Assembly (NCBI RefSeq): GCF_024585265.1
Contig: NZ_CP036533.1
Span: forward strand, 1,364,001-1,428,000
Source: Bradyrhizobium sp. WBAH42
GTDB taxonomy: Bacteria; Pseudomonadota; Alphaproteobacteria; Rhizobiales; Xanthobacteraceae
Direction of reading: 5' to 3'
Length of the DNA: 64,000 nucleotides
Under the pieces are notes generated by a model. That model was not told the origin of the DNA. It searched no databases and worked only from the letters and a program-made list of their open reading frames with translations. This document shows, in pieces, positions 2,518 to 34,100 of this stretch. The first letter of the stretch is position 1. Each line of letters starts with the position of its first letter. The translations under genes and the position numbers were made by a program.

Positions 2518-4068
2518 TCAGGCGTTGGCGACCTTCTTGTCGATTTCGGACGCCGCCGAGAACGCCTTGCGCAGGGTCGGCTTGTGGATCTTGCCGGTGG
2601 CGTTGCGCGGCAACGCATCGACGAAGCGGATCTGGCGCGGGCATTTGAAGCGCGCCAGATTGGCCGCGCAATGGGCGAACAGCTCGGTTTCCGTCAGCTC
2701 GTGTCCCGGCTTGATCGCGACGATGGCAAGGCCAACCTCGCCCCATTGCGCATCAGGAATGCCGATCACGGCAGCTTCCGCGATGGCGTTGAGCTGGTGC
2801 AGCACGTTCTCGACCTCGGCCGGATAGACGTTCTCGCCGCCCGAGATGTACATGTCCTTCCAGCGATCGACGATGTAGTAGAAGCCTTCCTCGTCGACGC
2901 GGGTGGCGTCGCCCGTGTGCAGCCAGCCGTCGGTGAAGGAGGTCTTGTTCGCCTCCGGCCTGTTCCAGTAGCCCGGCGTGATGTTGGGGCCCTTGACCCA
3001 GAGTTCGCCGAGTTCGCCGACATCGGCATCGCTGCCGTCGGGGCGCACGATACGCACCTCGGTGTGCAGCACCGGCTTGCCGGCGGAGCCGGCCTTGCGC
3101 GCTGCATCCTCGCGGTCGAGCACCAGCACAGCCGGCGAAGTCTCGGTCATGCCGTAGCCTTGCTGCAGCGCGACGCCGCGCGCCTCCCACACTTTCAACA
3201 GCGGCACCGGCATCGGCGCGCCGCCGACACCGCCGACGACCAGCCGGCTGAGATCGGTGGTCGCGAAGGCGGGGTGCTGCGCCATGAACTGATAGATCGC
3301 AGGCACGCCGAAGAACACGTTGATGCCCTGCGCGGGATCGTTGATCAGGCCGAGCGCCGTGCCGGGATCGAAGGCGCGCATGATCATCACGGTGCCGCCG
3401 GCATGCAGCACGGGATTGGTGTAGCAGTTGAGTCCGCCGGTGTGAAACAGCGGCAGCACGGTGAGCAGCACCGAGGTCGGCCCGATGCAGGCCGGGCCGC
3501 CGAGATTGACGCAATTCCAGAAGGTCATGCCATGGGTGATGGTCGCGCCCTTGGGATGGCCCGTCGTGCCTGACGTGTACATGATGGTCGAGACATCATC
3601 GAGCGTCACGTCCTCGGCGCGCGCCAGCGGCTTTGCGGCGGCGATGCCGGCTTCATAGCTGCCGCCCGGACCAAGCAGCAGGCTGGTCGCAACGTTGCAG
3701 AGCTTCGCCACGCTGATCGCCGTCTCGGCCAGATCAGTATCGTGGATCATCACCTTCGGCGCGCAGTCGGCGGTGATGAACTGAAGCTCGGGTACCGTGA
3801 GGCGGGTGTTGAGCGGCACGAAGGTCGCCCCCAGCCGCCCGCAGGCGAACTGCACCTCCAGCGTATCGGTCGTGTTCAGCGCCAGTACCGCGACGCGGTC
3901 GCCGCGCGAGACGTTGAGCGTGTGGCGCAGCAACGAGGCGAGGCGTGAGACGCGGGCGTCGAGTTGCGAATAGGTGAAGCGGCGCTCGCTCGCGAGGTCG
4001 ACGACCGCGGCCTTGTCAGGCGCGCGGCGGGCATGATGGGCGATCCAGTCGTAATAGCGAACGGCCAA
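2518..4068 (-). CDS. AMP-dependent acyl-CoA synthetase (fatty-acid CoA ligase family)
   Basis: This adenylate-forming enzyme activates a carboxylic acid to its acyl-CoA via an acyl-AMP. The P-loop-like motif is YTSGTTGHPKG, followed by GYGMTETSP and the hinge and C-terminal motifs GWLHTGDATRVDEEGFYYIVD, shown in part, and PRNATGKIHKPTLR with the catalytic lysine. The frame is open to 4326, but I place the start at a TTG at 4068 because AGGGAG lies 6 bp upstream and LAVRYYDWIAHHARRAPDKAA is a typical family N-terminus. That gives 516 residues, the usual length. It diverges from two acyl-CoA dehydrogenase genes and probably feeds them. The substrate is unknown. Confidence 0.88.
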   Translation of the reverse strand: MAVRYYDWIAHHARRAPDKAAVVDLASERRFTYSQLDARVSRLASLLRHTLNVSRGDRVAVLALNTTDTLEVQFACGRLGATFVPLNTRLTVPELQFITADCAPKVMIHDTDLAETAISVAKLCNVATSLLLGPGGSYEAGIAAAKPLARAEDVTLDDVSTIMYTSGTTGHPKGATITHGMTFWNCVNLGGPACIGPTSVLLTVLPLFHTGGLNCYTNPVLHAGGTVMIMRAFDPGTALGLINDPAQGINVFFGVPAIYQFMAQHPAFATTDLSRLVVGGVGGAPMPVPLLKVWEARGVALQQGYGMTETSPAVLVLDREDAARKAGSAGKPVLHTEVRIVRPDGSDADVGELGELWVKGPNITPGYWNRPEANKTSFTDGWLHTGDATRVDEEGFYYIVDRWKDMYISGGENVYPAEVENVLHQLNAIAEAAVIGIPDAQWGEVGLAIVAIKPGHELTETELFAHCAANLARFKCPRQIRFVDALPRNATGKIHKPTLRKAFSAASEIDKKVANA

Positions 4069-4334
4069 AGATGTCTCCCTCGACGGCCTCGTGCCGCCCG
4101 CTTTCTTGCTGCTTGCGCACCATGCCCGGCCTGGCCCTGGGGCCAGCCGGAGTCTGTGCAGCAACGTTTTTTTGCGCCAGAGTTGGCCTGCAAGCGGTGA
4201 AAATCGTCTTGCGTTGAGTTGCTGGCTTGCTGCCTTGCTTGAAGCATCCGCGCCAATCAGCCACTCCGCGCAAGTGAGCGGCCAAGGTTCCAGCCATGGT
4301 GGCCGGGACGAATCCGTTCGAGGCAAGTCCCGCG

Positions 4335-23149: not shown

Positions 23150-24304
23150 TCAGGCGGCAAGGAGCAGGATCTCGCGCAAATCGGCGGGACCTGAAATTTT
23201 GCGCGGGTTGCGCGGGATCCAGTTCGTCCGCATCGCAGCTTCTGCGATCGCATCGAAATGCTCCGGCGCGATGCGTACGTCGCTGAGGCTGCGCGGCATG
23301 CCGAGCGAACGGATGAAGGCATCGAGCACGTCGGCGGCGTCACGGCCGGGATAGCCCATGGCGGCCGCGACGATCATCTGCCGCTCGGCATTGTCGCGCG
23401 CATTCCAGCGCATCACTGCCGGCAGCATGACGCAGGAGGTGTAGCCGTGCGGCACGTCGAAGGCCCCGCCCAGCACGTAGCCGATGCCGTGGCTCGCGCC
23501 CATGGGCACCCCGGCGGCGAGCGCGCCCATCGACAGCCAGGTGCCGATCTGCGCGTCCATCCGCGCATCGAGATCGGATGGGTCGGCCTTCACCCGGGGC
23601 AGCGCGTCGGCGAGCATGGCGAGGCCCTTCACCGCTTGCGCATCGGCATAAGGATGCGTCTCGCGCGAGCAGATCGCCTCGACGCAATGGTCGACGGCGC
23701 GGATGCCGGTCGACAGGAACAGCCATTCCGGCGTGTGCACGGTGATGGCAGGATCGAGGATGGTCGCGCGCGGCACCGTGAGCGGATGCCGCAGCATCTG
23801 CTTCACCTGCGCGGCGCGGTCGGTGACACCCGCGATCGATGAGAACTCGCCGCCGGCGATCGTGGTCGGCACGCTGACCTGCCGCACGATTGGCGCCTTC
23901 ATCTCGGGCGCGACGCCCTTGCGCACGCGGATGCGGTCGATGCCGCCGATATCGTCGATGCCGTTGGCAAGGCAAAGCTGCACCGCCTTGGCCCCGTCGG
24001 TGATGGAACCGCCGCCGACGGTGACGATCAGATCGGCCTCCGCCTCGCGAGCCGCTTGAGTAGCCGCAATCACCGCCTCGCGCGGCGTATGCGCCGGCAT
24101 GGCGTCGAACAGGCCGGCGCAGCGCCGGCCAAGCGCGTGCTTGATCTTCTCGATCTCGTCGGTCTGCCGGTTCAGCGTCCCCGACACCATCAGGAAGGCG
24201 CGGCTTGTTCCCAGCCGGTCCATCTGCGCGACGACGGCTTCAGCCGCAGGATGGCCGAACACGACCTCCTCGATCGCGCCGAAAACGACACGTCCCTGGT
24301 GCAC
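23150..24304 (-). CDS. Iron-containing alcohol dehydrogenase / maleylacetate reductase-like protein
   Basis: The 384 residues are a class III (iron-type) alcohol dehydrogenase: the NAD-binding VTVGGGSITDGAKA, VPTTIAGGEFSSIAGVT, the metal-site helix GIRAVDHCVEAICSRE and GASHGIGYVLGGAFDVPHGY with the second histidines. The TTIAGGE segment resembles maleylacetate reductases, which reduce maleylacetate to 3-oxoadipate, but simple alcohol oxidation is also possible. The start is GTG at 24304, with GGGGAGGACAGGC directly upstream. It is first in the run of ligase and transporter genes. Confidence 0.83.
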   Translation of the reverse strand: MHQGRVVFGAIEEVVFGHPAAEAVVAQMDRLGTSRAFLMVSGTLNRQTDEIEKIKHALGRRCAGLFDAMPAHTPREAVIAATQAAREAEADLIVTVGGGSITDGAKAVQLCLANGIDDIGGIDRIRVRKGVAPEMKAPIVRQVSVPTTIAGGEFSSIAGVTDRAAQVKQMLRHPLTVPRATILDPAITVHTPEWLFLSTGIRAVDHCVEAICSRETHPYADAQAVKGLAMLADALPRVKADPSDLDARMDAQIGTWLSMGALAAGVPMGASHGIGYVLGGAFDVPHGYTSCVMLPAVMRWNARDNAERQMIVAAAMGYPGRDAADVLDAFIRSLGMPRSLSDVRIAPEHFDAIAEAAMRTNWIPRNPRKISGPADLREILLLAA

Positions 24305-24436
24305 GCCTGTCCTCCCCGGACAAATCGTTCTTGTTGTTGGGAGGCAATCTAGCGGACCCCGCCACGTCAGTCATGCGCGAAGACGCTGGCCGGTTTGCAG
24401 CGCGGGGGCAGGGCCGTGGCGGGGCCGGCGCGCACG

Positions 24437-24568
24437 CCTCGTCCTTCGAGACGGCGCTACGCGCCTCCTCAGGATGAGGCTCATCAGCGCCGGTGCCCTT
24501 CGAAACGGCCGCCGCACACTCCGCCCTCATCCTGAGGAGCCCGCGAAAGCGGGCGTCTCGAAGGATGG
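24437..24568. repeat. Intergenic inverted repeat, family E
   Basis: Outer arms CCTCGTCCTTCGAGACG and CGTCTCGAAGGATGG, inner arms CTCCTCAGGATGAGG/CCTCATCCTGAGGAG. It fills most of the gap between the PilZ gene and the dehydrogenase gene; I see no gene in the remainder. Relatives lie at 36616 and 44822. Confidence 0.9.
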
Positions 24569-24634
24569 CCGCAAGAGAAAGTCTCTCAAATGCGATTCCT
24601 GCCACAAAGGCAGGGACAGCCCGCCGCTATTCCC

Positions 24635-24880
24635 TCAAAACACCACGCCCACGCGCGTGCCGCGCTTCCAGGCGATGCGGCAGCGCTTTCTGGTGTTGAC
24701 GTGCAGCAGCTCGAAGCGATCGGGAATTTTCACCTGGCCGCCGAGATCGACGCAGGCCCCGCCGGGCGAATAGTCGATCAGCGTGCACGGGATCACCGGC
24801 GCGCGCGGGTCGGTGATGATCTTGGCCTGGCGCGACACCAGGCCTGCGGGCTTCACACGGACAAACTTGCGCGGATGCAT
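24635..24880 (-). CDS. Small PilZ-domain protein
   Basis: The 81 residues are almost entirely one PilZ-like domain: an arginine-containing start RKFVRVKPAG, then CTLIDYSPGGACVDLGG, where PilZ domains carry D/NxSxxG, and CRIAWKRGTRVGVVF at the end. PilZ domains bind cyclic di-GMP, although many small rhizobial ones lack the full RxxxR motif, and here only part of it is evident. GGAGGAG 8 bp before ATG 24880 sets the start. It is a single-domain protein with no obvious partner. Confidence 0.8.
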   Translation of the reverse strand: MHPRKFVRVKPAGLVSRQAKIITDPRAPVIPCTLIDYSPGGACVDLGGQVKIPDRFELLHVNTRKRCRIAWKRGTRVGVVF

Positions 24881-25026
24881 TGGCACGTCTCCTCCAATTC
24901 CGCAGGTCTCGCGGCGGGTGATCTGTCCCAATCATGGAAAAGAGATGATGCGATCCCCCTAAGCCGCGCCCGAGAATTTTAACGAAAAGTGTCGGCGAAT
25001 GGCAAAAGCAGCGGTAGCGGGGTGCC

Positions 25027-25186
25027 ACCCTCCCCTGGAGGGGGAGGGTCGATCGCGCGCAGCGCGAGCGGGGTGGGGTGATCTCTCAACACGGGCAGTG
25101 CATCCGCTGAGAGACTGTCACCCCACCCCGTCACGCAATCTCGCTTCGCTCGATCGCGTGCCGACCCTCCCCCTCCAGGGGAGGGT
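25027..25186. repeat. Intergenic inverted repeat, family F, overlapping a coding end
   Basis: About 160 bp with outer arms ACCCTCCCCTGGAGGGGGAG and its reverse complement, inner arms around GGGGTGGGGTGATCTCTC. The right 69 bp lie inside the DUF2235 gene and provide its stop codon. A second copy is at 36091. Confidence 0.92.
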
Positions 25187-26521
25187 AAGAGCCCCCTCCA
25201 CCTCCGCTCCCGCCGCCAGATCCACCCCCGGCGGCACCGGCATCGGCACCGTCACGTAGTCCTTCGGCAAGTTCACCGGCCGGTAGTCCGGCTCCACCGC
25301 CATGCGCTTGAGCACGCTCTCATGCACATGCGCGCCTTCGGGGATCAGGCGCGGCTCGCCATCGGGGATGTAAAAGCCGAACCAGACTTTCCGCGCCGGC
25401 CATTCCCTATACTTCGCGCTCTTCGGCAAGAACTCCAGCACGCGCCAGACCGCCGTCATGGAATCGTGCAGCATGCCGGTTGTCCCGGTATAGGCGGGCT
25501 CGACGTATTTGAACGGCGAGTTCTTGCGCTGGATGCCCCAGGCGAGCTGGTTCACCGTGCGCGGGTTGAACTTCAGCCCGGCCTTCTCGGCCTCGTCGAT
25601 CATCCAGAGCAACGGATATTTGGATTCGCCGCTCTCGGCTTCCGGATAGCCGCCGCCGACGTCGCAATGCACGCCGGCGAACCACACCTGCAGAATGTCC
25701 TGCGGCACCTTCTTCTCGTCAGGCACGTAGCGGTTGCTCCAGAACTCCTGCGGCTCCGCGTACGGCTTCAGGCGGAACATGCGCCGCCGCTCGTCGATCG
25801 CGATCGCCTGCCGGAAGATTTTTACGCTCGGATCGCGCAGCGTGAAGGCGAGCTCCTCCAGGCTCGGCAGGTAGAAGCGGTCGGCGCGCGGGACGATCAC
25901 GCTCGCCACCGTGTCCCAGACGCCGACGAAATGGATGGTCGGCCAGCGCGTCGAGGTGATGCGCGCGAACTGCGCGGCGAGGTCGAATTCGTCCTTCGGC
26001 AGCGGCCCGCTCTCGTCGAACACGATGCCCTTGAGGTCCTCGACGTCGTTGCCGCGCCCGCTCCCGGAATATTGCTTGTAGGCGATGAGGCCCGAGCCGG
26101 CGAGGTTCGCCTGCTCCGGCGAGATCAGCCCGACCTTGTGGATCAGCCCCGCCAGCACGCGCACCGTGTAGGCCCCGCGCGAGAAGCCGAACAGGTAGAT
26201 CCTGTCGCCGGGCGCGTAATGCTGGATCAGGAAGCAATAGGACGACAGCACGTTGTCATCGAGCCCGTAGCCGGTGGCGAGCCCCAGCACCAGCTTGATG
26301 TTGGCCTTCCAGCGCCCCCAGGTCGACGGCTCCGTCATGGTGCCGACGCCGGGATCGTAAAACACCATCTGCCGCGGCGACGTCTTGTCCGTCTTGCGCA
26401 GGCAGCGATAGAGCTTCAGGACGTTGGAGATGTTCTCCGAGATCTCGTTGCCGGTGCCGTCACAGCAGATGACGAGGTTCTTGCCGGCGGGCTTGTGGTC
26501 GGAAATGGCTGCGGTCTCCAT
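25118..26521 (-). CDS. DUF2235 (Tle1-like alpha/beta hydrolase) protein
   Basis: The 467 residues show the DUF2235 hallmarks: KNLVICCDGTGNE at the start, the nucleophile elbow FGFSRGAYTVR (serine near 114), FVGVWDTVASV with a candidate catalytic aspartate, and VHCDVGGGYPE with a candidate histidine. The fold is shared with type VI secretion phospholipase effectors of the Tle1 family, but there is no VgrG or other secretion gene nearby and no signal peptide. The last 22 or so residues are encoded by a dispersed repeat, so the native stop has been replaced. It is divergent from the coiled-coil gene at 26749. Confidence 0.88.
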   Translation of the reverse strand: METAAISDHKPAGKNLVICCDGTGNEISENISNVLKLYRCLRKTDKTSPRQMVFYDPGVGTMTEPSTWGRWKANIKLVLGLATGYGLDDNVLSSYCFLIQHYAPGDRIYLFGFSRGAYTVRVLAGLIHKVGLISPEQANLAGSGLIAYKQYSGSGRGNDVEDLKGIVFDESGPLPKDEFDLAAQFARITSTRWPTIHFVGVWDTVASVIVPRADRFYLPSLEELAFTLRDPSVKIFRQAIAIDERRRMFRLKPYAEPQEFWSNRYVPDEKKVPQDILQVWFAGVHCDVGGGYPEAESGESKYPLLWMIDEAEKAGLKFNPRTVNQLAWGIQRKNSPFKYVEPAYTGTTGMLHDSMTAVWRVLEFLPKSAKYREWPARKVWFGFYIPDGEPRLIPEGAHVHESVLKRMAVEPDYRPVNLPKDYVTVPMPVPPGVDLAAGAEVEGALTLPWRGRVGTRSSEARLRDGVG

Positions 26522-26696
26522 GGGATGCGCCTCCGGGGAATGCTACCGGGGCGAGTATAGCGGAAAATGAGCGGCAGCGAGGAGAGGAAGGGCTGTCCGG
26601 GAAATATGTCGCGGACAGCAAGGCTTTGGCATCGATCAGCCGACCGCCGGGCGACGCCGCCGGCATGCAGCCCCATGGCCGCATCGCCTGTTGACA

Positions 26697-26711
26697 TTAA
26701 CCTGTTGTTAA
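26697..26711 (+). promoter_or_regulatory. CtrA box (TTAA-N7-TTAA)
   Basis: TTAACCTGTTGTTAA is an exact full CtrA box, placed 37 bp upstream of the coiled-coil protein start at 26749 and directly after a TTGACA (26691-26696) that could serve as a -35 element. CtrA is the alphaproteobacterial cell-cycle regulator. TTAA is rare in DNA of this base composition. Confidence 0.75.
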
Positions 26712-26748
26712 CCATGCGGTCGCCTAATGCTGACGATGGGGGATCACC

Positions 26749-27429
26749 ATGTCGGCCCATGTGACGCGACGGAAATTGATGCCTGTTTCGGCCGATCCGG
26801 CCATCCGGTCGGCGGCGAGGCTGGCGGTTCGCGCCAAGGCCGTCCTACAGGGCAGAACGCCTGTCCTATGGAGCAAAGCCATGTTCGCAAGGGACGACTT
26901 AGTGGACAATCTCAGCCGCGATCTCGATCGCGCGCGCGGCAGACGCGATGCGCTCGCATCCGAAGCCACGGCCCTGACGGCCCAGATCGCCGAAATCGAA
27001 ACCCGCCTTTCGGAGGAGAAGAAAAGGCGGGAGCGTGAGCGCGTCCTGAGCGAGATCGAACTGATCAAGACGCGAATCAAGCAAGCGGCCGGCGCGTTTG
27101 CACCTGTCGTCGACGGTCTCTCCAGGGCGGTCGAGCAGGCTGCGGCAGTTGTGCCCGAGGCGCGCGAGCTCAATAGTTTCCTGGTGTCGGTGGCGACCGA
27201 GATCGACAGCGTGCTCGATCCCCTGTTGCGTGAACTGGATCAGCGCGCGGATGCGGTGCGATCCGGCCACGCAGCGCTGGACTTGCCGAGTTCGGCCGTT
27301 GAAGCGCCGCCCGTCGAACTGCCGAAGGACACCAACGAACGCCTGCTTCGCTTTCCGGCCTGGCTGTCTCGCGACAAGGAAACGGACAAGAAGGAAACAG
27401 CGGAGAAGCCGCACAGCACGGCAGCGTGA
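26749..27429 (+). CDS. Coiled-coil protein of unknown function
   Basis: The 226 residues belong to no family I recognise. Residues about 45-105 form a strongly charged heptad-rich coiled coil (LDRARGRRDALASEATALTA, then ERVLSEIELIKTRIKQ), followed by a helical middle and a lysine/glutamate-rich tail. There is no signal peptide or membrane segment, so it is probably cytoplasmic. A start at the ATG at 26749 fits GGGGGATCACC upstream; internal ATGs at 26779 and 26881 are possible. It has a CtrA box upstream and converges on the ftsZ paralogue, which suggests a role in the cell cycle or division (inference). Confidence 0.75.
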   Translation: MSAHVTRRKLMPVSADPAIRSAARLAVRAKAVLQGRTPVLWSKAMFARDDLVDNLSRDLDRARGRRDALASEATALTAQIAEIETRLSEEKKRRERERVLSEIELIKTRIKQAAGAFAPVVDGLSRAVEQAAAVVPEARELNSFLVSVATEIDSVLDPLLRELDQRADAVRSGHAALDLPSSAVEAPPVELPKDTNERLLRFPAWLSRDKETDKKETAEKPHSTAA

Positions 27430-27474
27430 AGCCTCGGCGCGCTGTGCGCCTTTGGAGCGTTGTTGTTTTGCTCC

Positions 27475-27578
27475 GTCATTCCGGGGCGCGCCCCTTGGCG
27501 CGAACCCGGAATCCATTGCTCAACGGTCACCGCGGCTAAATGGATCCCGGGCTCTCGCTTCGCGAGCCCCGGGATGAC
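27475..27578. repeat. Intergenic inverted repeat, family A
   Basis: Outer arms GTCATTCCGGGGCGCGC and GAGCCCCGGGATGAC with the inner GAATCCATT/AAATGGATC arms. It separates the convergent coiled-coil and ftsZ-like genes and may act as a two-way terminator. Confidence 0.9.
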
Positions 27579-27631
27579 GACCTGTTATTTGGCTCGCTGG
27601 TCGCCCGACACGCGGCCTGGCTCCCCCCCGC

Positions 27632-28888
27632 TCAGTTCGCCGCGCGGCGCAGGAAAGCCGGAATATCGAGAGCGGCCTCGTCGGGCAGATTGCGCGCAGG
27701 GGCGCGGCCGTAAGGATCAAGCGGCTGAAGCGCCGCGTGCGGCGCATGGTCCAGACCCGGCCGTGCCGGCGGTCCCACCGGGTGGTGTGGCTGCGGGCGC
27801 AGTGGCGGGCTTCCCGCTTGCGGAAGGGGGGCGCTGCGCTCGATGCGATCGGCGATGCGGCGGCCGTCGCTGCGCAGCCTGCCGGCGAGTTGGGTGAGGG
27901 CGGTTTCCACCGGCTGCGCCTGCGCGGGATCGAGATTATCTATACCGGTCGCCACCACCGAGACGCGGACGATGCCCTCTAAGCTCTCGTCGAAGGACGC
28001 ACCGACGATGATGTTGGCGTCCGGGTCGGCCTCGTCGCGAATCCGGGTCGCCGCTTCGTCGACCTCGTACAGCATCAGATCCTTGCCGCCGGTGATGGAG
28101 ATGATGAGGCCGCTGGCGCGCTTGATCGAGGGGTTCTCGATCAGCGGATTGGAGATCGCGGCGACGGCGGCGGCAAGCACGCGCTTCTCGCCGGAGGCCT
28201 CGCCGCGTCCCATCATGGCCTTGCCCTTCTCCTTCATGACGGAGAGCACGTCGGCAAAATCGAGATTGATCAGGCCTTCCTTGACGATGAGGTCGCTGAT
28301 GCAGGCCACGCCCGAATACAGCACCTGGTCGGCGAGCGCGAAGGCATCGGCGAACGTGGTCTTCTCGCTGGCCACCCGGAACAGGTTCTGGTTCGGGATG
28401 ATCAGGAGGGTGTCGACCGTCTTCAGCAGCTCCTCGATGCCGGCTTCGGCAAAGCGCATGCGGCGCTGGCCCTCGAAGTAGAACGGCTTCGTGACCACGC
28501 CGATGGTGAGAATGCCGAGCTCGCGCGCGATCCTGGCGACGACGGGTGCAGCCCCGGTGCCGGTGCCGCCGCCCATGCCGGCCGTAACGAACACCATGTG
28601 CGCGCCGGTCAATTGCTCGCGGATCGTGTCGATCGCCTCTTCGGCTGCGGCGCGTCCCAGTTCCGGCTGCGAGCCGGCGCCGAGACCTGCGGTCACCCTT
28701 GTGCCGAGCTGGATGAGGCGCGTCGCCTTTGACATCGCCAGCGCCTGCGCGTCGGTGTTGGCGACCACGAACTCGACGCCTTGCAGCCCGGCCGTGATCA
28801 TGTTGTTGACGGCATTGCCGCCGGCGCCGCCGACGCCGAACACGACGATGCGGGCCTTCATTTCATGGATATCGGTGTTGCCAGTCAT
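27632..28888 (-). CDS. FtsZ paralogue (short, second FtsZ)
   Basis: The 418 residues have a complete GTPase core: the tubulin signature GGGTGTGA at about 106-113, nucleotide-contact segments [14 protein letters not shown] and ANTDAQAL, and the T7 loop NLDFADV with the catalytic aspartate. The linker after residue about 320 is short (roughly 90 residues, proline-rich), much shorter than in main alphaproteobacterial FtsZ proteins of the dcw cluster. The protein still ends in a conserved-type tail [11 protein letters not shown], the site that binds FtsA, ZipA-like or MinC-like partners. No dcw genes surround it, so it is a second copy like FtsZ2 of rhizobia. It lies downstream of the HTH/coiled-coil gene, 52 bp away. 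Confidence 0.93.
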
Positions 28889-28940
28889 TCTTCCCTCGCG
28901 ATTGCTCCGGCAAGCCGGGGGTTAAAGAAAGTCTCGCGTG

Positions 28941-29453
28941 CTAGCTGCGGGCCGCGCGGTCTGCTTGCACGATGAAGGCGGCCAGATGTCCCAATCGACG
29001 CGCCGCGTGTCCCGCGATCGAGCCGCCAGGGCGGCGATCGCTCCGCAGCGCCGCCACTTCGTCTTCCAGTCGTGCCGCCCATGCATTGGCGGCCGTCGTT
29101 TCGGCGGCCGCCTGCGTCAGCTCGACGGCGAGGCGATCGGCACGCTCGCGCTCGCGCTCGAACACGGCCCTGTAGGCGGTTGCGACCGATTCGAGCCGCG
29201 CGATCTCCGCCTTGAAGACTTCGGTCTTGACCGCCTCGATCCTGGCCAGGGAGGCCCCGATGGGATCTGCCCGTCGGGCGCGTCGCGGGCGGGGCGTGTA
29301 GCGGAGCTCGGCGAGATCGACGCTCACCACCGCCTTGCCGTCGTCCGACCGCGAGCGCGGCAACCGGCGACGCCGCGCCAGTGCCCGCGCGGCCTCGCGC
29401 GAGACATTGAGGCGGGCACCGAGATCGGCATACGTCAACAACTCAACGCACAT
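28941..29453 (-). CDS. Helix-turn-helix and coiled-coil protein upstream of the ftsZ paralogue
   Basis: The 170 residues open with a MerR/excisionase-like helix-turn-helix (LTYADLGARLNVSREAARAL, then ARRRRLPRSRSDDGKAVVSV) followed by a long charged coiled coil at about 80-150 (ARIEAVKTEVFKAEIARLES). The start at 29453 is set by AGGAG 8 bp upstream; the frame opens earlier, at 29486. DNA binding plus coiled coil suggests a nucleoid- or septum-associated factor or a regulator. It is the probable first gene of an operon with ftsZ2 and has a CtrA box 81 bp upstream. I do not recognise a named family. Confidence 0.8.
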   Translation of the reverse strand: MCVELLTYADLGARLNVSREAARALARRRRLPRSRSDDGKAVVSVDLAELRYTPRPRRARRADPIGASLARIEAVKTEVFKAEIARLESVATAYRAVFERERERADRLAVELTQAAAETTAANAWAARLEDEVAALRSDRRPGGSIAGHAARRLGHLAAFIVQADRAARS

Positions 29454-29534
29454 CGGCGCTTCTCCTGGAGCGAACCGGGAAGGCATTTCGGGCTAATGAT
29501 GGCTGGACGATTGCAGCAGGCTAGGATGCGTTGG

Positions 29535-29549
29535 TTAATGGACGGTTAA
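29535..29549 (-). promoter_or_regulatory. CtrA box (TTAA-N7-TTAA)
   Basis: TTAATGGACGGTTAA is an exact full CtrA box, 81 bp upstream of the HTH/coiled-coil gene that precedes the ftsZ paralogue. A further TTAA lies at 29563-29566. It is the second such box within 3 kb. Confidence 0.72.
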
Positions 29550-29705
29550 CGGGCGTGCGGTGTTAACGCTTTGGCTCATTCGCGTTTTTCCGCTGCAGTC
29601 CGGCTGTTGTGGGCAGCGCCGGGGCATGGCCGGCAAAAGGCTTATGTACCTGGACTCATTCGTCGGTTAGTCTCCCTAGAACCCTTGCGCATTGTGGTGC
29701 GGTTT

Positions 29706-30512
29706 ATGGCTGAAGACGACCGGATCACCTTAATCATCGAGGGCTTGCCCGAGGATAACGGGCAGGTTCGCCTTGGCGCGTTCATGAATCAGCTTCAAAA
29801 GCTGAATGCCACTATCACGAAGCTGGATCGTGAAGCCAACGAAGGAAGGCAAGCTACCGTCTATAAGATCGCTGAGCTTTCCTACCAAAGCCCTGTGCGA
29901 GTTGTTCTGGAGCCTCAGGCGCTTCCTAAACTACCATATGTTGGTCACGCTATCATTGAGAGCTTGGGTCGCGTGACGCATGCGCTAGAAATTGGTGATG
30001 ATCTTTCTGGGCTGGACGCGGATTTGCTTGAGGATATTCGCGGCCTTGCCAAACCCGTAGGAAAGACGGTGGCCAATGTCACGCTGCTTTTCAACGCTCA
30101 TCGATTTGATTTGACGCCAAAGATTGCTTCCAAAGTCGATACCGCGCTGGCTGTTGATGAGGAATGCATTGGTACGATCGAAGGGATGTTGGAGCAGATA
30201 AATCTGCACGATGGCGCGAACGTCTTCTACGTTTATCCTGAAATCGGACCACGCAAGGTCACCTGCCATTTCGCGCCCGCTCTGTACGACGACGCTGTCT
30301 CTGCGGTGGGGCGAAAGGTTGAGGTGTATGGCACGCTGCGCTACCGGAGTGGCGCGACGTTCCCGCACCAGGTGCAGGTAACGCAGATTGAGGCGTTCCC
30401 GCCAGATTCCGAATTGCCTGACTGGGATGACGTTCGCGGTATGGCGCCAGATGCTACCGGTGAGTTGAGCAGCGAAGCCTTCATTCGGGAGCTTCGCGAT
30501 GGCTGGTACTGA
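29706..30512 (+). CDS. Unknown protein with OB-like C-terminal region, partner of a PIN protein
   Basis: The 268 residues are not from a family I can name. Residues about 1-130 look alpha/beta (RITLIIEGLPEDNGQVRLGA). Residues about 155-235 have the rhythm of an OB fold: GTIEGMLEQINLHDGANVFY, then GRKVEVYGTLRYRSGATFPH. No membrane segment or signal is present. The ATG at 29706 is chosen over the distant 29571 start because the family-like sequence begins there. The last 14 bp overlap the start of the PIN gene. Base composition is visibly more AT-rich than the flanks, suggesting transfer. Nucleic-acid or antitoxin-like function is inference only. Confidence 0.75.
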   Translation: MAEDDRITLIIEGLPEDNGQVRLGAFMNQLQKLNATITKLDREANEGRQATVYKIAELSYQSPVRVVLEPQALPKLPYVGHAIIESLGRVTHALEIGDDLSGLDADLLEDIRGLAKPVGKTVANVTLLFNAHRFDLTPKIASKVDTALAVDEECIGTIEGMLEQINLHDGANVFYVYPEIGPRKVTCHFAPALYDDAVSAVGRKVEVYGTLRYRSGATFPHQVQVTQIEAFPPDSELPDWDDVRGMAPDATGELSSEAFIRELRDGWY

Positions 30513-31050
30513 GCCGGTCTACTACTGGGATTCGTGCCTTTTTCTGGCTTGGATAAAGGACGAAGAGCGTTCGATTGGCGAAATGGACGGCGTTCGCGAA
30601 GTCATCGAACGCGTCAAACGCCGCGAGGCAAAGATTATCACGTCGGTTCTCACGACTACCGAAGTGCTTGAGAGTCGGCTCCCGGCTGGCATGAAGAGCC
30701 TTATAGATGGACTTATGAAGCGTGTTATTCGTGTTGGCATGGACATTAAAATTGCGAAAATGGCGCACGATCTGCGCGATTACTACATGCAACGCTCGAC
30801 AGAGGCTGGAGGCAAGACGCTTGGGGTTCCTGATGCCATCCACTTAGCCACAGGGATACTCAACCGGGTGACTGAGTTTCATACTTTCGATGGCGGTGGC
30901 ACGGGCAAATCGCTTGGGTTGCTGCCGCTATCTGGCAATGTTGGCGGCCACAGGCTCACAGTATGCAAACCACACGCAAGAAGCCCGCAGCTAGACCTGC
31001 GAAAACCGAAGCCCGACAGGACGACCCAGAGCAATCCAAGCGGTTCCTAG
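30499..31050 (+). CDS. PIN-domain protein (VapC-like putative RNase)
   Basis: The first 140 of 183 residues form a PIN domain with all four expected acidic residues: D11 in YYWDSCLFLAWIK, E55 in LTTTEVLES, D112 in GVPDAIHLATGI and D131 in FHTFDGGG. PIN domains coordinate magnesium or manganese and cut RNA. The C-terminal 45 residues (LGLLPLSGNVGGHRLTVCKP) are an extension. It overlaps the upstream gene by 14 bp, so the two are coupled, which fits a toxin-antitoxin-like or RNA-processing pair; the partner is much larger than a classical VapB. Its 3' end overlaps a small gene in another frame. Confidence 0.82.
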   Translation: MAGTEPVYYWDSCLFLAWIKDEERSIGEMDGVREVIERVKRREAKIITSVLTTTEVLESRLPAGMKSLIDGLMKRVIRVGMDIKIAKMAHDLRDYYMQRSTEAGGKTLGVPDAIHLATGILNRVTEFHTFDGGGTGKSLGLLPLSGNVGGHRLTVCKPHARSPQLDLRKPKPDRTTQSNPSGS

Positions 31051-31127
31051 GGGCCGCCAAAGAGGCTGGGGCGGATGGGGGTGCCAAGGGCGTGGAGCGC
31101 GCCATTAAGCCACGTAAGCCCAAGTGA
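30963..31127 (+). CDS. Small basic hypothetical protein (54 residues)
   Basis: The ATG at 30963 opens a frame encoding MQTTRKKPAARPAKTEARQD, DDPEQSKRFLGAAKEAGADG and a lysine/arginine-rich end, stopping at TGA 31125-31127. The DPEQSKRF-x2-AAKEAGAD pattern recalls short hypothetical proteins common in Bradyrhizobium. It overlaps the PIN gene by 88 bp in a different frame, and its stop overlaps the GTG start of the next gene (GTGA). No strong ribosome site is visible, so translation coupled to the PIN gene is likely. Confidence 0.6.
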   Translation: MQTTRKKPAARPAKTEARQDDPEQSKRFLGAAKEAGADGGAKGVERAIKPRKPK

Positions 31128-31381
31128 GCGGTTGGAAGGAAGAACTCCAGAAACAGGGCGGCTGCGGGCTGCTCATGATGGCGTGGGGCGTCTTCGCGGT
31201 TGGCTATATGATTTATTGGTTTGCTACAGGCGGCAATCCGGAGGTCAAAGCCTTCCGGGATGAGTGCCATAGGCGGGAGTTGCGAGGCTATACGCCGGGC
31301 TACGCGCCTGACTACGCCATCGAGGCTGCAGTAGCAAAGTGCGAACGCGAATTACGGATCAGCCGTGGCCTGAAACCTTAA
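31124..31381 (+). CDS. Small membrane protein of unknown function
   Basis: The 85 residues begin at a GTG that overlaps the preceding stop codon. Residues about 13-33 (GCGLLMMAWGVFAVGYMIYW) form one membrane segment, and the remaining 50 are charged, with two cysteines (FRDECHRREL and AKCEREL). It is the last member of the tightly overlapped four-gene run starting at 29706. Function is unknown. Confidence 0.6.
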   Translation: MSGWKEELQKQGGCGLLMMAWGVFAVGYMIYWFATGGNPEVKAFRDECHRRELRGYTPGYAPDYAIEAAVAKCERELRISRGLKP

Positions 31382-31808
31382 CTTGGCGAGGCATGTAGTT
31401 GAATTCGCTGCTAGGCACGTCAAGTGAAACATCGCCATTGATATTCCGTAACGTTCGACAGAGAAGCCTTGGGGATTTCCCTTGAGCTCGAGCCATAGGG
31501 GGCTTCGTAAGTTCATAGAGTCAAGTAGGGTAGGTGCTTTTAGCCGCACAGCGATGTTGCTTTTCGGAATTGTCGAGCAGCACTAGTGAAAGAGCGAGAA
31601 CGTTTCGTGAGGCAAAGTCTCGCTCGGACGACTTCCGCTATCGTCAGAATTCCGTGTCTCGTCAAGGGCAGTGCGGACCACGAAGAACGGGTCAGGCTAC
31701 TTGACCATACATTTCCCGATTCAACGACGTCAACGTGACGTTGTGCTCGACTAATTTCAGTGTCGAGCCTACCCTCTTCAGACAGAAAATCAAAAATGGA
31801 GGGCGATA
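31382..31808. other. Intergenic region with two small dyads, no supported gene
   Basis: This AT-richer 427 bp gap has no gene I can defend; a minus-strand frame reaching into it looks like chance. It holds a palindrome ACGTCAACGTGACGT at 31727-31741 and a hairpin with GCTCGAC/GTCGAGC arms at 31745-31768, directly upstream of the small secreted-protein gene, so they may be its control sites. Confidence 0.4.
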
Positions 31809-32057
31809 ATGAGAGGGCCGGCACTCCCATTTCTTGTGAGTCTACTCGCAACGCAACTTCCCTTCCAGCTAGCTCGCGCCGAGCCTGACTCAAAACAGAT
31901 TGAGCAAGCTCTAAGTGGACTGTTCTCTCATGATCGTGACCAGATATTAGATGACAACCTGCGCGAGGCATTCAAGCGGGGCTATCGTCGAGGACGTCAG
32001 GATGAAGCACAGGCCAGAAACGAGCAGCCACCGTCCAAGAAGCCCAAGGCAAAATAG
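31809..32057 (+). CDS. Small exported protein of unknown function
   Basis: The 82 residues carry a convincing signal peptide (MRGPALPFLVSLLATQLPFQ, cleavage near ARA-E) and a mature part of about 58 charged residues (LFSHDRDQILDDNLREAFKR). It is therefore probably periplasmic. It lies just upstream of a membrane protein and a DUF2235 hydrolase. In type VI Tle1 systems the immunity proteins are periplasmic, so an immunity-like role is conceivable but speculative. Confidence 0.6.
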   Translation: MRGPALPFLVSLLATQLPFQLARAEPDSKQIEQALSGLFSHDRDQILDDNLREAFKRGYRRGRQDEAQARNEQPPSKKPKAK

Positions 32058-32106: not shown

Positions 32107-32508
32107 ATGGAGGGAATTGTGAGTGCCACTCTCTTCCATCGGCAAACAGTAAGAACTTCCGAGCAATCGCTCTGGATTGGGGCACTCGTGACTGTGCTTC
32201 TCGTTGGTACAGTCTGCAGGACGAAGGCGTGCGACCAGTCGTATGTCCTTCGAACTAACGGCGACGCAATACAGTCATTTTACTATTCCCGGGATTCATG
32301 GATCAGCGCCGACCTTCTCGCGGGCCATCCACCGGTGTCAAGCAGTGCCCCGCGGGCGATTACACTGACCGGTCTGGGACCATATCGATTCCGTGCGGTT
32401 CTCAGTGTGAGTCAGGAGGTGATTCTGGACGTCAGCGATCTATGCGCAAATACTCGAATTACCATTTTTTCGGATTCTCGTGGCAACCATCGGATGGTTG
32501 TCAAATGA
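32107..32508 (+). CDS. Small protein with one N-terminal membrane segment, coupled to a DUF2235 gene
   Basis: From ATG 32107 the product has 133 residues: a short cytoplasmic start, one membrane segment or uncleaved signal (WIGALVTVLLVGTVCRTKAC) and an extracytoplasmic beta-rich domain (ITLTGLGPYRFRAVLSVSQE). A GTG at 32119 after ATGGAGGGAATT is an alternative start. The stop overlaps the ATG of the DUF2235 gene (ATGA), indicating that the two are made together. I do not recognise a family. Confidence 0.6.
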   Translation: MEGIVSATLFHRQTVRTSEQSLWIGALVTVLLVGTVCRTKACDQSYVLRTNGDAIQSFYYSRDSWISADLLAGHPPVSSSAPRAITLTGLGPYRFRAVLSVSQEVILDVSDLCANTRITIFSDSRGNHRMVVK

Positions 32509-34100
32509 CGGCCGGGCGAAGACTTCTGTTATTCTTAGACGGCACTTGGAATGAAGATGCCGCTCACGACCGGGACACGAACGTTGTTAGATTGCGAGAT
32601 ACAATCTCAAACGGAGTTACGTCTGGCTTCCGCGTCCCGCGTTCCATTGACGAATTTGACAAATGGGATAGGGAGGCCGTCGAATTTGGCGCATGCCCTT
32701 ACCGTGGGTGCATTTACTTTACATTCTATGAAAGAGGTGTCGGCACGGGCCCTGGCTTGGACCGCCTTTCAGGCGGCGCTCTGGGATGGGGCGTAGAACG
32801 AAACGTACGCCGAGCTTACAGATTTCTCAGTCGGCATTACATCCCCGGTAGCGAGATTTTTATTTTCGGCTTTTCGAGAGGGGCCCATGCTGCCCGCTCA
32901 CTCGTTGGATTTCTAGGCTCCGCGGGGCTTCTGCGGGCGGAGAACTGCACTATCGAATTGGAGAAGCAGGCGTGGGACTACTACCGCACTTCACCAAATG
33001 ATCGAATGCCAGGAATAAGGACGGAGTTAGGGAGGTATGTATACCCAGCACTGCGTGTCGCATGCCTAGGGGTTTTTGATTCAGTCGCCACCTTAGGCGT
33101 TCCGATAAATTCGTTCTGGCGTTTAAATCGACAGCGACATGAATTTCATGACGTTCTTCTGTCCCCCCTTGTGAAATTGAATTTGCACGCACTGGCGATT
33201 GATGAAACCCGTGTCCAATTTCGAGCGAGTGTCTGGAGGCAGAGCAAGTTTAGGGTAAGCAACTCAGTAACCGAGCAAACTTGGTTTCCGGGGACGCACT
33301 CTGATATTGGCGGCGGTTATTTTAGCGATCAAGAACGTGACAGTGGGCCACGACGCTTAGATGATGTGCCACTGGATTGGATGCTGAAGCGCATTCTCTA
33401 TCACTACCCGGACTTCCCCATTCGCGAACCCGGATTTGTGCCACTGCCGGGCGCGGCTGTAGAGCCAAGTATTCTGCATAACTCGCGAACGGGACATTAC
33501 AGAGTTTTCCCGCCAGTTATCCGTACGATAGGGAATCGACGGCCGCCCTTGCTTGTTCGCGAGCGACCCGTCAGCTACGAGCGTGATGAAGCAGTAGTCG
33601 GCGAATCTATTCACATTTCCGCTTTAGAGCGGCTCGCGACAAGGCCCGCTTGCGAAAGTAAAATGTATCTTCCGAGAAACTTGATCGTACATCTTCCTAA
33701 TCTGTGGCAGAGGTATTGTATTGCACCTGGGCGCGCTTGGGACTCGGATGCGGTTAGTATTACGATCTGGGACGGGCATCCGGTCCTCCCTGGAATTGGC
33801 AAGGAGAATAGCAAGGATGCGGCGGCCCTAAACCAGGTGCAGAAGGCTCTCGTAGATGCCATCTCCCGCTTGAAGGAATTAGGTTACGACGTTCTTTCTG
33901 AGAATGAAAAGTGGAATCCTGCGGCCGTAGTCTTGACGTTAGCATCCGGAAAAAAGGCGCCCAAATCATTCTTGGGCAGGTGCTTGAGCACGGTTCTCTG
34001 CCAAAGGATCGAGCCGCGAACGCCGCTCATGAAAGCTATCAAAAACCTGCCCCGGTCCGTCCGAAACTTTCTCGCGTTGAGGTATCGGCGCTCAAAATGA
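32505..34100 (+). CDS. DUF2235 (Tle1-like alpha/beta hydrolase) protein
   Basis: The 531 residues show LLLFLDGTWNEDAA at the start, the elbow FGFSRGAHAARSL (serine about 124), CLGVFDSVATLGVP with a candidate aspartate, HALAIDETR and WFPGTHSDIGGGYF with a candidate histidine. This is the same hydrolase family as the gene at 25118, yet the two differ widely in sequence and length. It lacks a signal peptide. The ATG overlaps the stop of the small membrane protein. Base composition is AT-rich, like the rest of the islet. A phospholipase role is known for some relatives and only inferred here. Confidence 0.85.
   Translation: MTAGRRLLLFLDGTWNEDAAHDRDTNVVRLRDTISNGVTSGFRVPRSIDEFDKWDREAVEFGACPYRGCIYFTFYERGVGTGPGLDRLSGGALGWGVERNVRRAYRFLSRHYIPGSEIFIFGFSRGAHAARSLVGFLGSAGLLRAENCTIELEKQAWDYYRTSPNDRMPGIRTELGRYVYPALRVACLGVFDSVATLGVPINSFWRLNRQRHEFHDVLLSPLVKLNLHALAIDETRVQFRASVWRQSKFRVSNSVTEQTWFPGTHSDIGGGYFSDQERDSGPRRLDDVPLDWMLKRILYHYPDFPIREPGFVPLPGAAVEPSILHNSRTGHYRVFPPVIRTIGNRRPPLLVRERPVSYERDEAVVGESIHISALERLATRPACESKMYLPRNLIVHLPNLWQRYCIAPGRAWDSDAVSITIWDGHPVLPGIGKENSKDAAALNQVQKALVDAISRLKELGYDVLSENEKWNPAAVVLTLASGKKAPKSFLGRCLSTVLCQRIEPRTPLMKAIKNLPRSVRNFLALRYRRSK

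Follow-up and report, generated by a model that had tools for sequence, protein, structure and literature searches.

The sequence analysed here (the window) is a 64,000-nucleotide stretch of Bradyrhizobium sp. WBAH42 that corresponds to positions 1364001-1428000 of a single-contig 8.29-Mb genome. It carries a second ftsZ gene, which we call ftsZ2, placed between two genes for coiled-coil proteins and framed by two exact boxes of the type recognized by the cell-cycle regulator CtrA. We describe the locus, its conservation across the genus, and a possible role in the timing of cell division. Coordinates of the locus refer to the window.

Architecture of the ftsZ2 locus

The ftsZ2 gene (27632..28888, minus strand) encodes a 418-aa FtsZ paralogue. 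Directly upstream on the same strand, across a gap of about 50 bp, lies a gene for a helix-turn-helix (HTH) protein (28941..29453, minus strand), and given the shared strand and the short gap the two genes look like one operon. The HTH protein has 170 aa if translated from the ATG at 29453 and 181 aa from the ATG at 29486. The former is the likelier start because M12 is nearly invariant and many database homologues are 170-171 aa long. On the other side of ftsZ2, a gene on the plus strand (26749..27429) runs convergently and encodes a helical coiled-coil protein of 226 aa with a disordered tail, hereafter CC. Its start is either 26749 or the ATG at 26881, which would yield a protein of ~182 aa; many CC homologues cover just ~81% of the query, and at several loci (L182, L185, L210-L212) the alignment begins only at residue 42-45. 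The open reading frame (ORF) map agrees with the initial annotation of this DNA, which had placed an HTH/coiled-coil gene on one side of ftsZ2 and a convergent coiled-coil gene on the other. The nearest named relatives of both flanking proteins are from Bradyrhizobium yuanmingense (95% identity), and homologues of the two families in databases are mostly annotated as hypothetical.

A profile search with PF00091 returned two matches genome-wide, that is, two ftsZ genes on one chromosome. FtsZ1 (595 aa) is encoded at 3.08 Mb, where the neighbouring ORFs read by eye as FtsQ and FtsA. FtsZ2 is encoded away from division and cell wall (dcw) genes, as had been proposed; the ftsQ/ftsA-like ORFs adjoin FtsZ1 instead.

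FtsZ2 scores 395.9 bits against the FtsZ equivalog model TIGR00065, above the cut-off of 295.2, with a further 167.4 bits against Tubulin (PF00091) and 108.8 bits against FtsZ_C. It fails the model for the alphaproteobacterial C-terminal extension (TIGR03483, 17.2 bits, cut-off 62.95), to which just its last 39 residues align; this extension is a trait of long alphaproteobacterial FtsZ and not of every FtsZ. The cores of FtsZ1 and FtsZ2 align closely, whereas the linker comprises ~85 aa in FtsZ2 and ~260 in FtsZ1. Conservation was assessed in 86 distinct, near-full FtsZ2 sequences (identity of 72.9% or more, length up to 470 aa, alignment beginning no later than residue 10). All 86 have the GTPase signature GGGTGTG, and 85 have the T7 loop NLDFADV. 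The C-terminal FtsZ peptide (27635..27670, minus strand) is retained, and a tail of this type occurs in 74 of the 86; the tail at L188, which the search expression missed and which falls outside this count, is visibly of the same type. In some lineages FtsZ2 forms of 351-382 aa lack the peptide. The model matches and the linker and tail alignment bear out the earlier description of a second FtsZ whose GTPase core is intact, whose linker is short and whose tail is of the conserved type. FtsZ2 is probably able to bind GTP and to polymerise.

In ten pairwise comparisons, the ratio of nonsynonymous to synonymous substitution rates (dN/dS) was 0.07-0.17 for FtsZ2 and 0.25-0.46 for the HTH protein and CC, so all three proteins look to be under purifying selection.

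CtrA-type promoters

CtrA, a regulator of the OmpR type, recognises TTAA-N7-TTAA and times division in alphaproteobacteria. The genome encodes a CtrA orthologue at 108087 (NF045991, 421.7 bits, cut-off 350). One CtrA-type box, TTAACCGTCCATTAA followed by CCA (29535..29549, minus strand), precedes the HTH-ftsZ2 operon, and another, TTAACCTGTTGTTAA followed by CCA (26697..26711, plus strand), precedes the CC gene. These are the two exact TTAA-N7-TTAA sites in the window, where 0.02 would be expected. The CC box stands 37 bp from the CC ATG; the other stands 81 bp from the second HTH ATG (29453) and 48 bp from the first (29486). The distances of 37 and 81 bp in the initial annotation are correct if the latter is counted to the ATG at 29453. 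It had assigned one box to each outer gene, which is accurate for CC, whereas the right-hand box fronts the whole HTH-ftsZ2 operon and not just the outer gene.

The two promoters are of similar design, TTAAC-N6-TTAACCA before the HTH gene and TTAACC-N5-TTAACCA before CC, each with CCTA 9-11 nt downstream. Conserved elements resembling a -10 box, and putatively serving as one, follow both: CCTAGCCTG (29517..29525, minus strand) lies 9 nt past the HTH-ftsZ2 box and GCCTAATG (26722..26729, plus strand) 10 nt past the CC box. A CtrA-type box just upstream of a -10-like element would fit direct promoter control, perhaps activation.

Genome-wide, the bare pattern TTAA-N7-TTAA is hardly enriched, occurring at 46 places compared with 38 for a reversed control, and was rejected as stand-alone evidence. 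The extended motif TTAA-N7-TTAACCA occurs at 13 places versus 1 for the reversed control. Both boxes of the locus are among the 13, and other sites precede the genes for minC, a flagellin and an SLT-domain protein. Apart from the two at the locus, 36 of the 44 bare boxes lie outside called ORFs, and some of the genes downstream have no evident link to the cell cycle. The 7.5-kb ftsZ1 region of this genome contains no exact TTAA-N7-TTAA box. Since the bare pattern is hardly enriched, the case for CtrA control is built on the enrichment of the extended motif and on conservation across loci.

That conservation is extensive. When only loci with distinct upstream 140-150 bases are counted as distinct, 83 of 85 HTH-FtsZ2 loci (82 of 84 in a first count, before L218 was added) have an exact box in the 200 bp that precede the aligned HTH start. 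The box is present within 400 bp upstream of CC at all 45 distinct loci, a number that takes in loci aligned only after residue 25, which the first count had dropped. The control patterns AATT-N7-AATT, TTAA-N6-TTAA, TTAA-N8-TTAA and TATA-N7-TATA were found at 0 of the 85 HTH and 0 of the 45 CC loci. The two box-less HTH loci, L041 and L183, belong to a single genome as additional copies, and the third copy there (L182) has the box. Five CC genes do not adjoin ftsZ2 (L208-L212): the two genes are far apart in G019 and G025, 24 kb separates CC from one ftsZ2 copy in G199, and G028 and G201 carry them on different contigs. All five have the box and the CCTA element. Among seven HTH relatives without FtsZ2 in the available sequence stretch, six have no box; in the first count the box was present at 0 of 5 such loci.

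The box is kept while the sequence upstream of it is not, and the downstream promoter is partly shared too, above all for CC. In thinned sets of 42 HTH and 22 CC loci, the commonest base had the following mean frequencies for HTH and CC, respectively: 0.47 and 0.58 over the 40 bases before the box, 0.71 and 0.77 within the spacer, and 0.68 and 0.83 over the 40 bases after it. The spacer and upstream flank thus vary between loci, and part of the downstream sequence is common. The TTAA tetrads themselves score 1.00 by construction, as the loci were chosen for an exact box, and were not used as evidence. The initial annotation had named conservation of both boxes and of the gene order across Bradyrhizobium and Rhodopseudomonas as a check of its proposal. 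The outcome bears the proposal out within Bradyrhizobium, but the module was not seen in Rhodopseudomonas, from which the three matches among the 80 kept are long FtsZ1-type proteins of 590-594 aa.

The seventh HTH relative without FtsZ2, which is 37% identical and comes from another genus, has a bare box just upstream and no FtsZ in its 3.5-kb stretch (L220, genome G430, ~1171-1653).

Distribution and origin of FtsZ2

A second FtsZ is encoded by 130 of 265 Bradyrhizobium genomes, defined as those with at least two FtsZ matches and a best E value of 1.9e-166 or lower. The remaining 135 include G175, G032 and G033, which have extra weak matches, and three genomes without any FtsZ match. The HTH protein was matched in 127 of the 130 FtsZ2-bearing genomes and in 1 of the 135 others, the latter a weak match (E 7e-4). 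The HTH counts mix ftsZ2-linked copies with a ~45%-identical paralogue, through which a few FtsZ2-bearing genomes (e.g. G015) are mainly counted; in the loci read, the HTH gene is directly upstream of ftsZ2. Close CC homologues (E < 1e-60) occur in 76 of the 130 FtsZ2-bearing genomes and in 0 of the 135 others. That threshold admits 76 of the 135 genomes with any CC match, the other 59 having just distant ones (E 8e-9 or weaker). Distant CC-like proteins (23-36% identical) are present in both groups of genomes and were not counted. All these co-inheritance counts ignore shared ancestry. Simple linkage is insufficient to explain them because some CC genes lie away from FtsZ2.

Among 111 genomes of the order, five from outside Bradyrhizobium have a second FtsZ match: three of family f24, one of f31 (G557), and one in which the match is a 123-base fragment (G043). 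The HTH protein was matched in 8 of 198 genomes of the family, four of which are Bradyrhizobium. Of the other four, all but G451 were examined. G406, which belongs to a different genus of this family, carries HTH-FtsZ2 together with the box, whereas the HTH relatives of G430 (L220) and G292 (L219) have no FtsZ2 within the 3.5-4 kb examined.

Phylogenetic trees place FtsZ2 in one clade with 100/100 support, beside the FtsZ1 proteins of Nitrobacteraceae. The first tree comprised 77 of 176 distinct FtsZ proteins; a second, wider tree of 55 sequences contains long branches (L292, L293 and L100 among others) that are unsurely placed. Four truncated paralogues from family f24 of the same order (330-345 aa, without the C-terminal peptide) form a separate clade, also with 100/100 support. 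The separate, fully supported clades point to independent duplications of FtsZ, and the tree rejects orthology between FtsZ2 and the f24 paralogues.

Two or three copies of FtsZ2 accompany FtsZ1 in some genomes (G089, L182-L184; G199, L186, L202 and L203), and some of the accompanying HTH genes are broken or lack the box.

The HTH and CC proteins

The HTH protein is predicted to consist of a winged-helix-like DNA-binding domain, a long coiled coil and a conserved C-terminal helix, RRLGHLAAFIVQADRAAR (28947..29018, minus strand). The helix is present in intact ftsZ2-linked copies and absent from five paralogue sequences without ftsZ2. Pfam gave no MerR match up to E = 1. In a Foldseek search with the predicted model, the first matches of the N-terminal domain were BldC and RacA, which are MerR-like DNA-binding proteins. 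The length of the protein varies widely among relatives through coiled-coil repeats.

Repeats of ~45 residues lengthen the coiled coil in the HTH homologues P0136, P0150 and P0207 (270-339 aa) and also at L183 and L184. The HTH paralogue, ~45% identical and without the C-terminal helix, is encoded away from ftsZ at L213, L214 and L215; at L215 it adjoins an ORF that reads as gyrA. Within Bradyrhizobium, this paralogue too seems confined to FtsZ2-bearing genomes, with one weak exception.

CC has a conserved tail motif, LRFPAWLSR (27346..27372, plus strand), that resembles the FtsZ C-terminal peptide. An FtsZ-tail profile built without CC ranked CC eighth among 591 sampled proteins of its own genome, and two of the seven above it are FtsZ proteins. 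A tail expression written after CC had been seen matched, among 1206 proteins, only FtsZ (plus two FtsZ fragments) and CC. The proposal that the CC tail mimics the FtsZ peptide is suggestive only. The protein ends in a conserved -AA in 42 of 44 distinct CC sequences.

In G006 (C14:178251-178700, in L221), the gene that directly follows ftsZ2 on the same strand encodes a distant relative of CC (31% identical, E 3.6e-7). This genome has no close CC homologue, and proteins like the distant relative (~300 aa) are also found in FtsZ2-negative genomes.

Flanking sequences

The region between the convergent CC and ftsZ2 genes (27475-27580) is rich in palindromes and by eye resembles a dispersed repeat; Rfam returned no RNA element match in 24000-32000. 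A DUF2235/Tle1-like gene (25118-26521) flanks CC, and in relatives N-terminal fragments of the same DUF2235 gene lie beyond the HTH box (L033-L036 and L039, ~4000-4310; L021), a pattern suggestive of a rearrangement of the locus by way of this gene. Window positions 29571-31050 hold a 313-aa ORF with no Pfam model over the cut-off that overlaps a PIN-domain-like ORF, itself below the cut-off. Several relatives have a DUF2235 gene fragment there instead, and the stretch may have been inserted recently and carry a pair that resembles a toxin-antitoxin system. Another DUF2235-like gene, which has diverged, is located at 32298-34100.

A proposed accessory division module

The sequence data support the genes themselves, the conservation of the boxes, co-inheritance, purifying selection and the FtsZ2 clade. 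With moderate confidence, we propose that the locus encodes an accessory FtsZ module timed by CtrA, in which a ZapT-like DNA-binding coiled-coil protein (HTH) and a coiled-coil adaptor (CC) work with FtsZ2. Two promoters of like design would drive the HTH-ftsZ2 operon and CC together, in the CtrA pulse. FtsZ2, with a partner-docking tail on a much shorter linker, would most likely join or compete with the main FtsZ ring, act in predivisional cells and alter the timing or architecture of the Z-ring. The most likely role of the HTH protein is to anchor FtsZ2 to DNA, as ZapT connects the Caulobacter terminus with the Z-ring, and CC is most likely a coiled-coil adaptor that bridges FtsZ2 to the divisome. 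The cell-cycle-timed accessory module put forward in the initial annotation is thereby partly supported: its conservation holds in Bradyrhizobium, while CtrA binding, polymerisation, DNA tethering, the adaptor role, mid-cell localisation and an effect on division, which could be promotion or restraint, are predictions.

An unlikely alternative is that CtrA control is real and the proteins form no physical module. The HTH protein would then autoregulate its operon, CC would be an independent protein of the CtrA regulon, and FtsZ2 alone would modulate division. The first gene of an operon often encodes a local regulator if its product has a DNA-binding domain, and CC is missing from 54 of the 130 FtsZ2-bearing genomes. 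However, close CC homologues occur in none of the 135 genomes without FtsZ2, although CC does not always adjoin FtsZ2. Moreover, a simple repressor would need neither the long coiled coil of the HTH protein nor the C-terminal helix, which the five paralogue sequences without ftsZ2 lack.

A more elaborate version of the module, which we regard as doubtful, is a CtrA-switched, chromosome-linked second Z-system. The HTH protein on DNA would recruit FtsZ2 by its C-terminal helix, the CC tail mimic (LRFPAWLSR on a disordered arm) would occupy partners that bind the FtsZ tail, for instance FtsA or MinC, and the main Z-ring would be re-timed or re-sited. The -AA end of CC would in this version mark the protein for removal by ClpXP after each pulse.

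That FtsZ2 is mainly a symbiosis factor reshaping division during bacteroid differentiation seems decidedly doubtful. NodA (E < 1e-60, a threshold that retains 139 of the 163 genomes with a match) is encoded in 94 of the 130 FtsZ2-bearing genomes and in 45 of the 135 without FtsZ2, a difference that is significant by Fisher test but uncorrected for phylogeny. The association was left out as evidence of function because of this missing correction. Two ftsZ genes are reportedly more expressed in the swollen peanut bacteroids of B. arachidis (PMC9927569). One of the B. arachidis genes, WN72_03170, may be FtsZ2, since its tag number implies a position of ~0.65-0.69 Mb, where several complete genomes have FtsZ2. 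On the other hand, 36 of the 130 FtsZ2-bearing genomes lack NodA and 45 genomes with NodA lack FtsZ2, and promoters of the CtrA type speak for the ordinary cell cycle. An accessory division module timed by CtrA needs neither the NodA association nor bacteroid expression.

It is improbable that the boxes are bound by another OmpR-family regulator in place of CtrA. Many OmpR-type regulators bind direct repeats ~11 bp apart, and CtrA binding at this locus is a prediction, but the same extended motif precedes minC and the flagellin gene in this genome, which also encodes the CtrA orthologue. We consider it hardly credible that the HTH protein and FtsZ2 are a DNA-moving partition pair like TubR-TubZ: a DNA-binding gene does lie directly upstream of a gene for a tubulin-family GTPase, but FtsZ2 is a true, chromosomally encoded FtsZ with a division peptide that branches near Nitrobacteraceae FtsZ1, and TubRZ-type partition was rejected as no direct repeats of at least 12 nt (iterons) occur in 28850-29750.

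Relation to known systems

FtsZ2 shares with the canonical alphaproteobacterial FtsZ1 the GTPase signature, the T7 loop, the FtsZ_C domain and the C-terminal peptide. It differs in its shorter linker, in its position away from ftsQ/ftsA and in having its own CtrA-type promoter. A second FtsZ within the same order is also known from Agrobacterium (accessory FtsZ) and from Sinorhizobium meliloti (FtsZ2). Agrobacterium tumefaciens is described as having three FtsZ homologues, just one of which has a linker and a C-terminal peptide (PMC13170164). Compared with accessory FtsZ proteins of the Agrobacterium type, Bradyrhizobium FtsZ2 mostly keeps the peptide, has an HTH operon mate and a box, and forms a clade apart from the f24 paralogues. 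We guess that Agrobacterium or Sinorhizobium belongs to f24.

The closest established precedent is the ZapT-ZauP-ZapA system of Caulobacter. ZapT is described as a DNA-binding protein of the MerR type; its C-terminal part, in which leucines are conserved, binds a partner with a coiled coil, so that DNA is tied to the Z-ring (PMC7858052). On paper, the HTH protein and CC would have the same design. Unlike ZapT, the HTH protein has no MerR match in Pfam, the HTH/CC set occurs only in Bradyrhizobium with FtsZ2 and in close relatives, and the interaction is a predicted one.

CtrA control of division has been reported elsewhere in the order. CtrA targets minC and minD in S. meliloti, where they are described as the sole characterised division genes under its direct control (PMC4433202), and a TTAA-N7-TTAA site upstream of minC has been reported for A. 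tumefaciens (PMC5900048). In Sinorhizobium CtrA represses a division inhibitor, whereas the predicted targets here are an FtsZ paralogue and two candidate partners.

No description of this Bradyrhizobium locus was found by title or abstract start; it may be described in subscription papers, which are mostly outside such a search. Within that scope, the accessory division module looks unreported. A CtrA-type promoter before an FtsZ paralogue, kept across much of the genus together with two candidate partners, would connect the cell-cycle clock with the Z-ring of bradyrhizobia in a concrete way. It would also bring a function within reach for two protein families mostly annotated as hypothetical, and it suggests a connection with the shape of bacteroids in legume nodules that can be tested.

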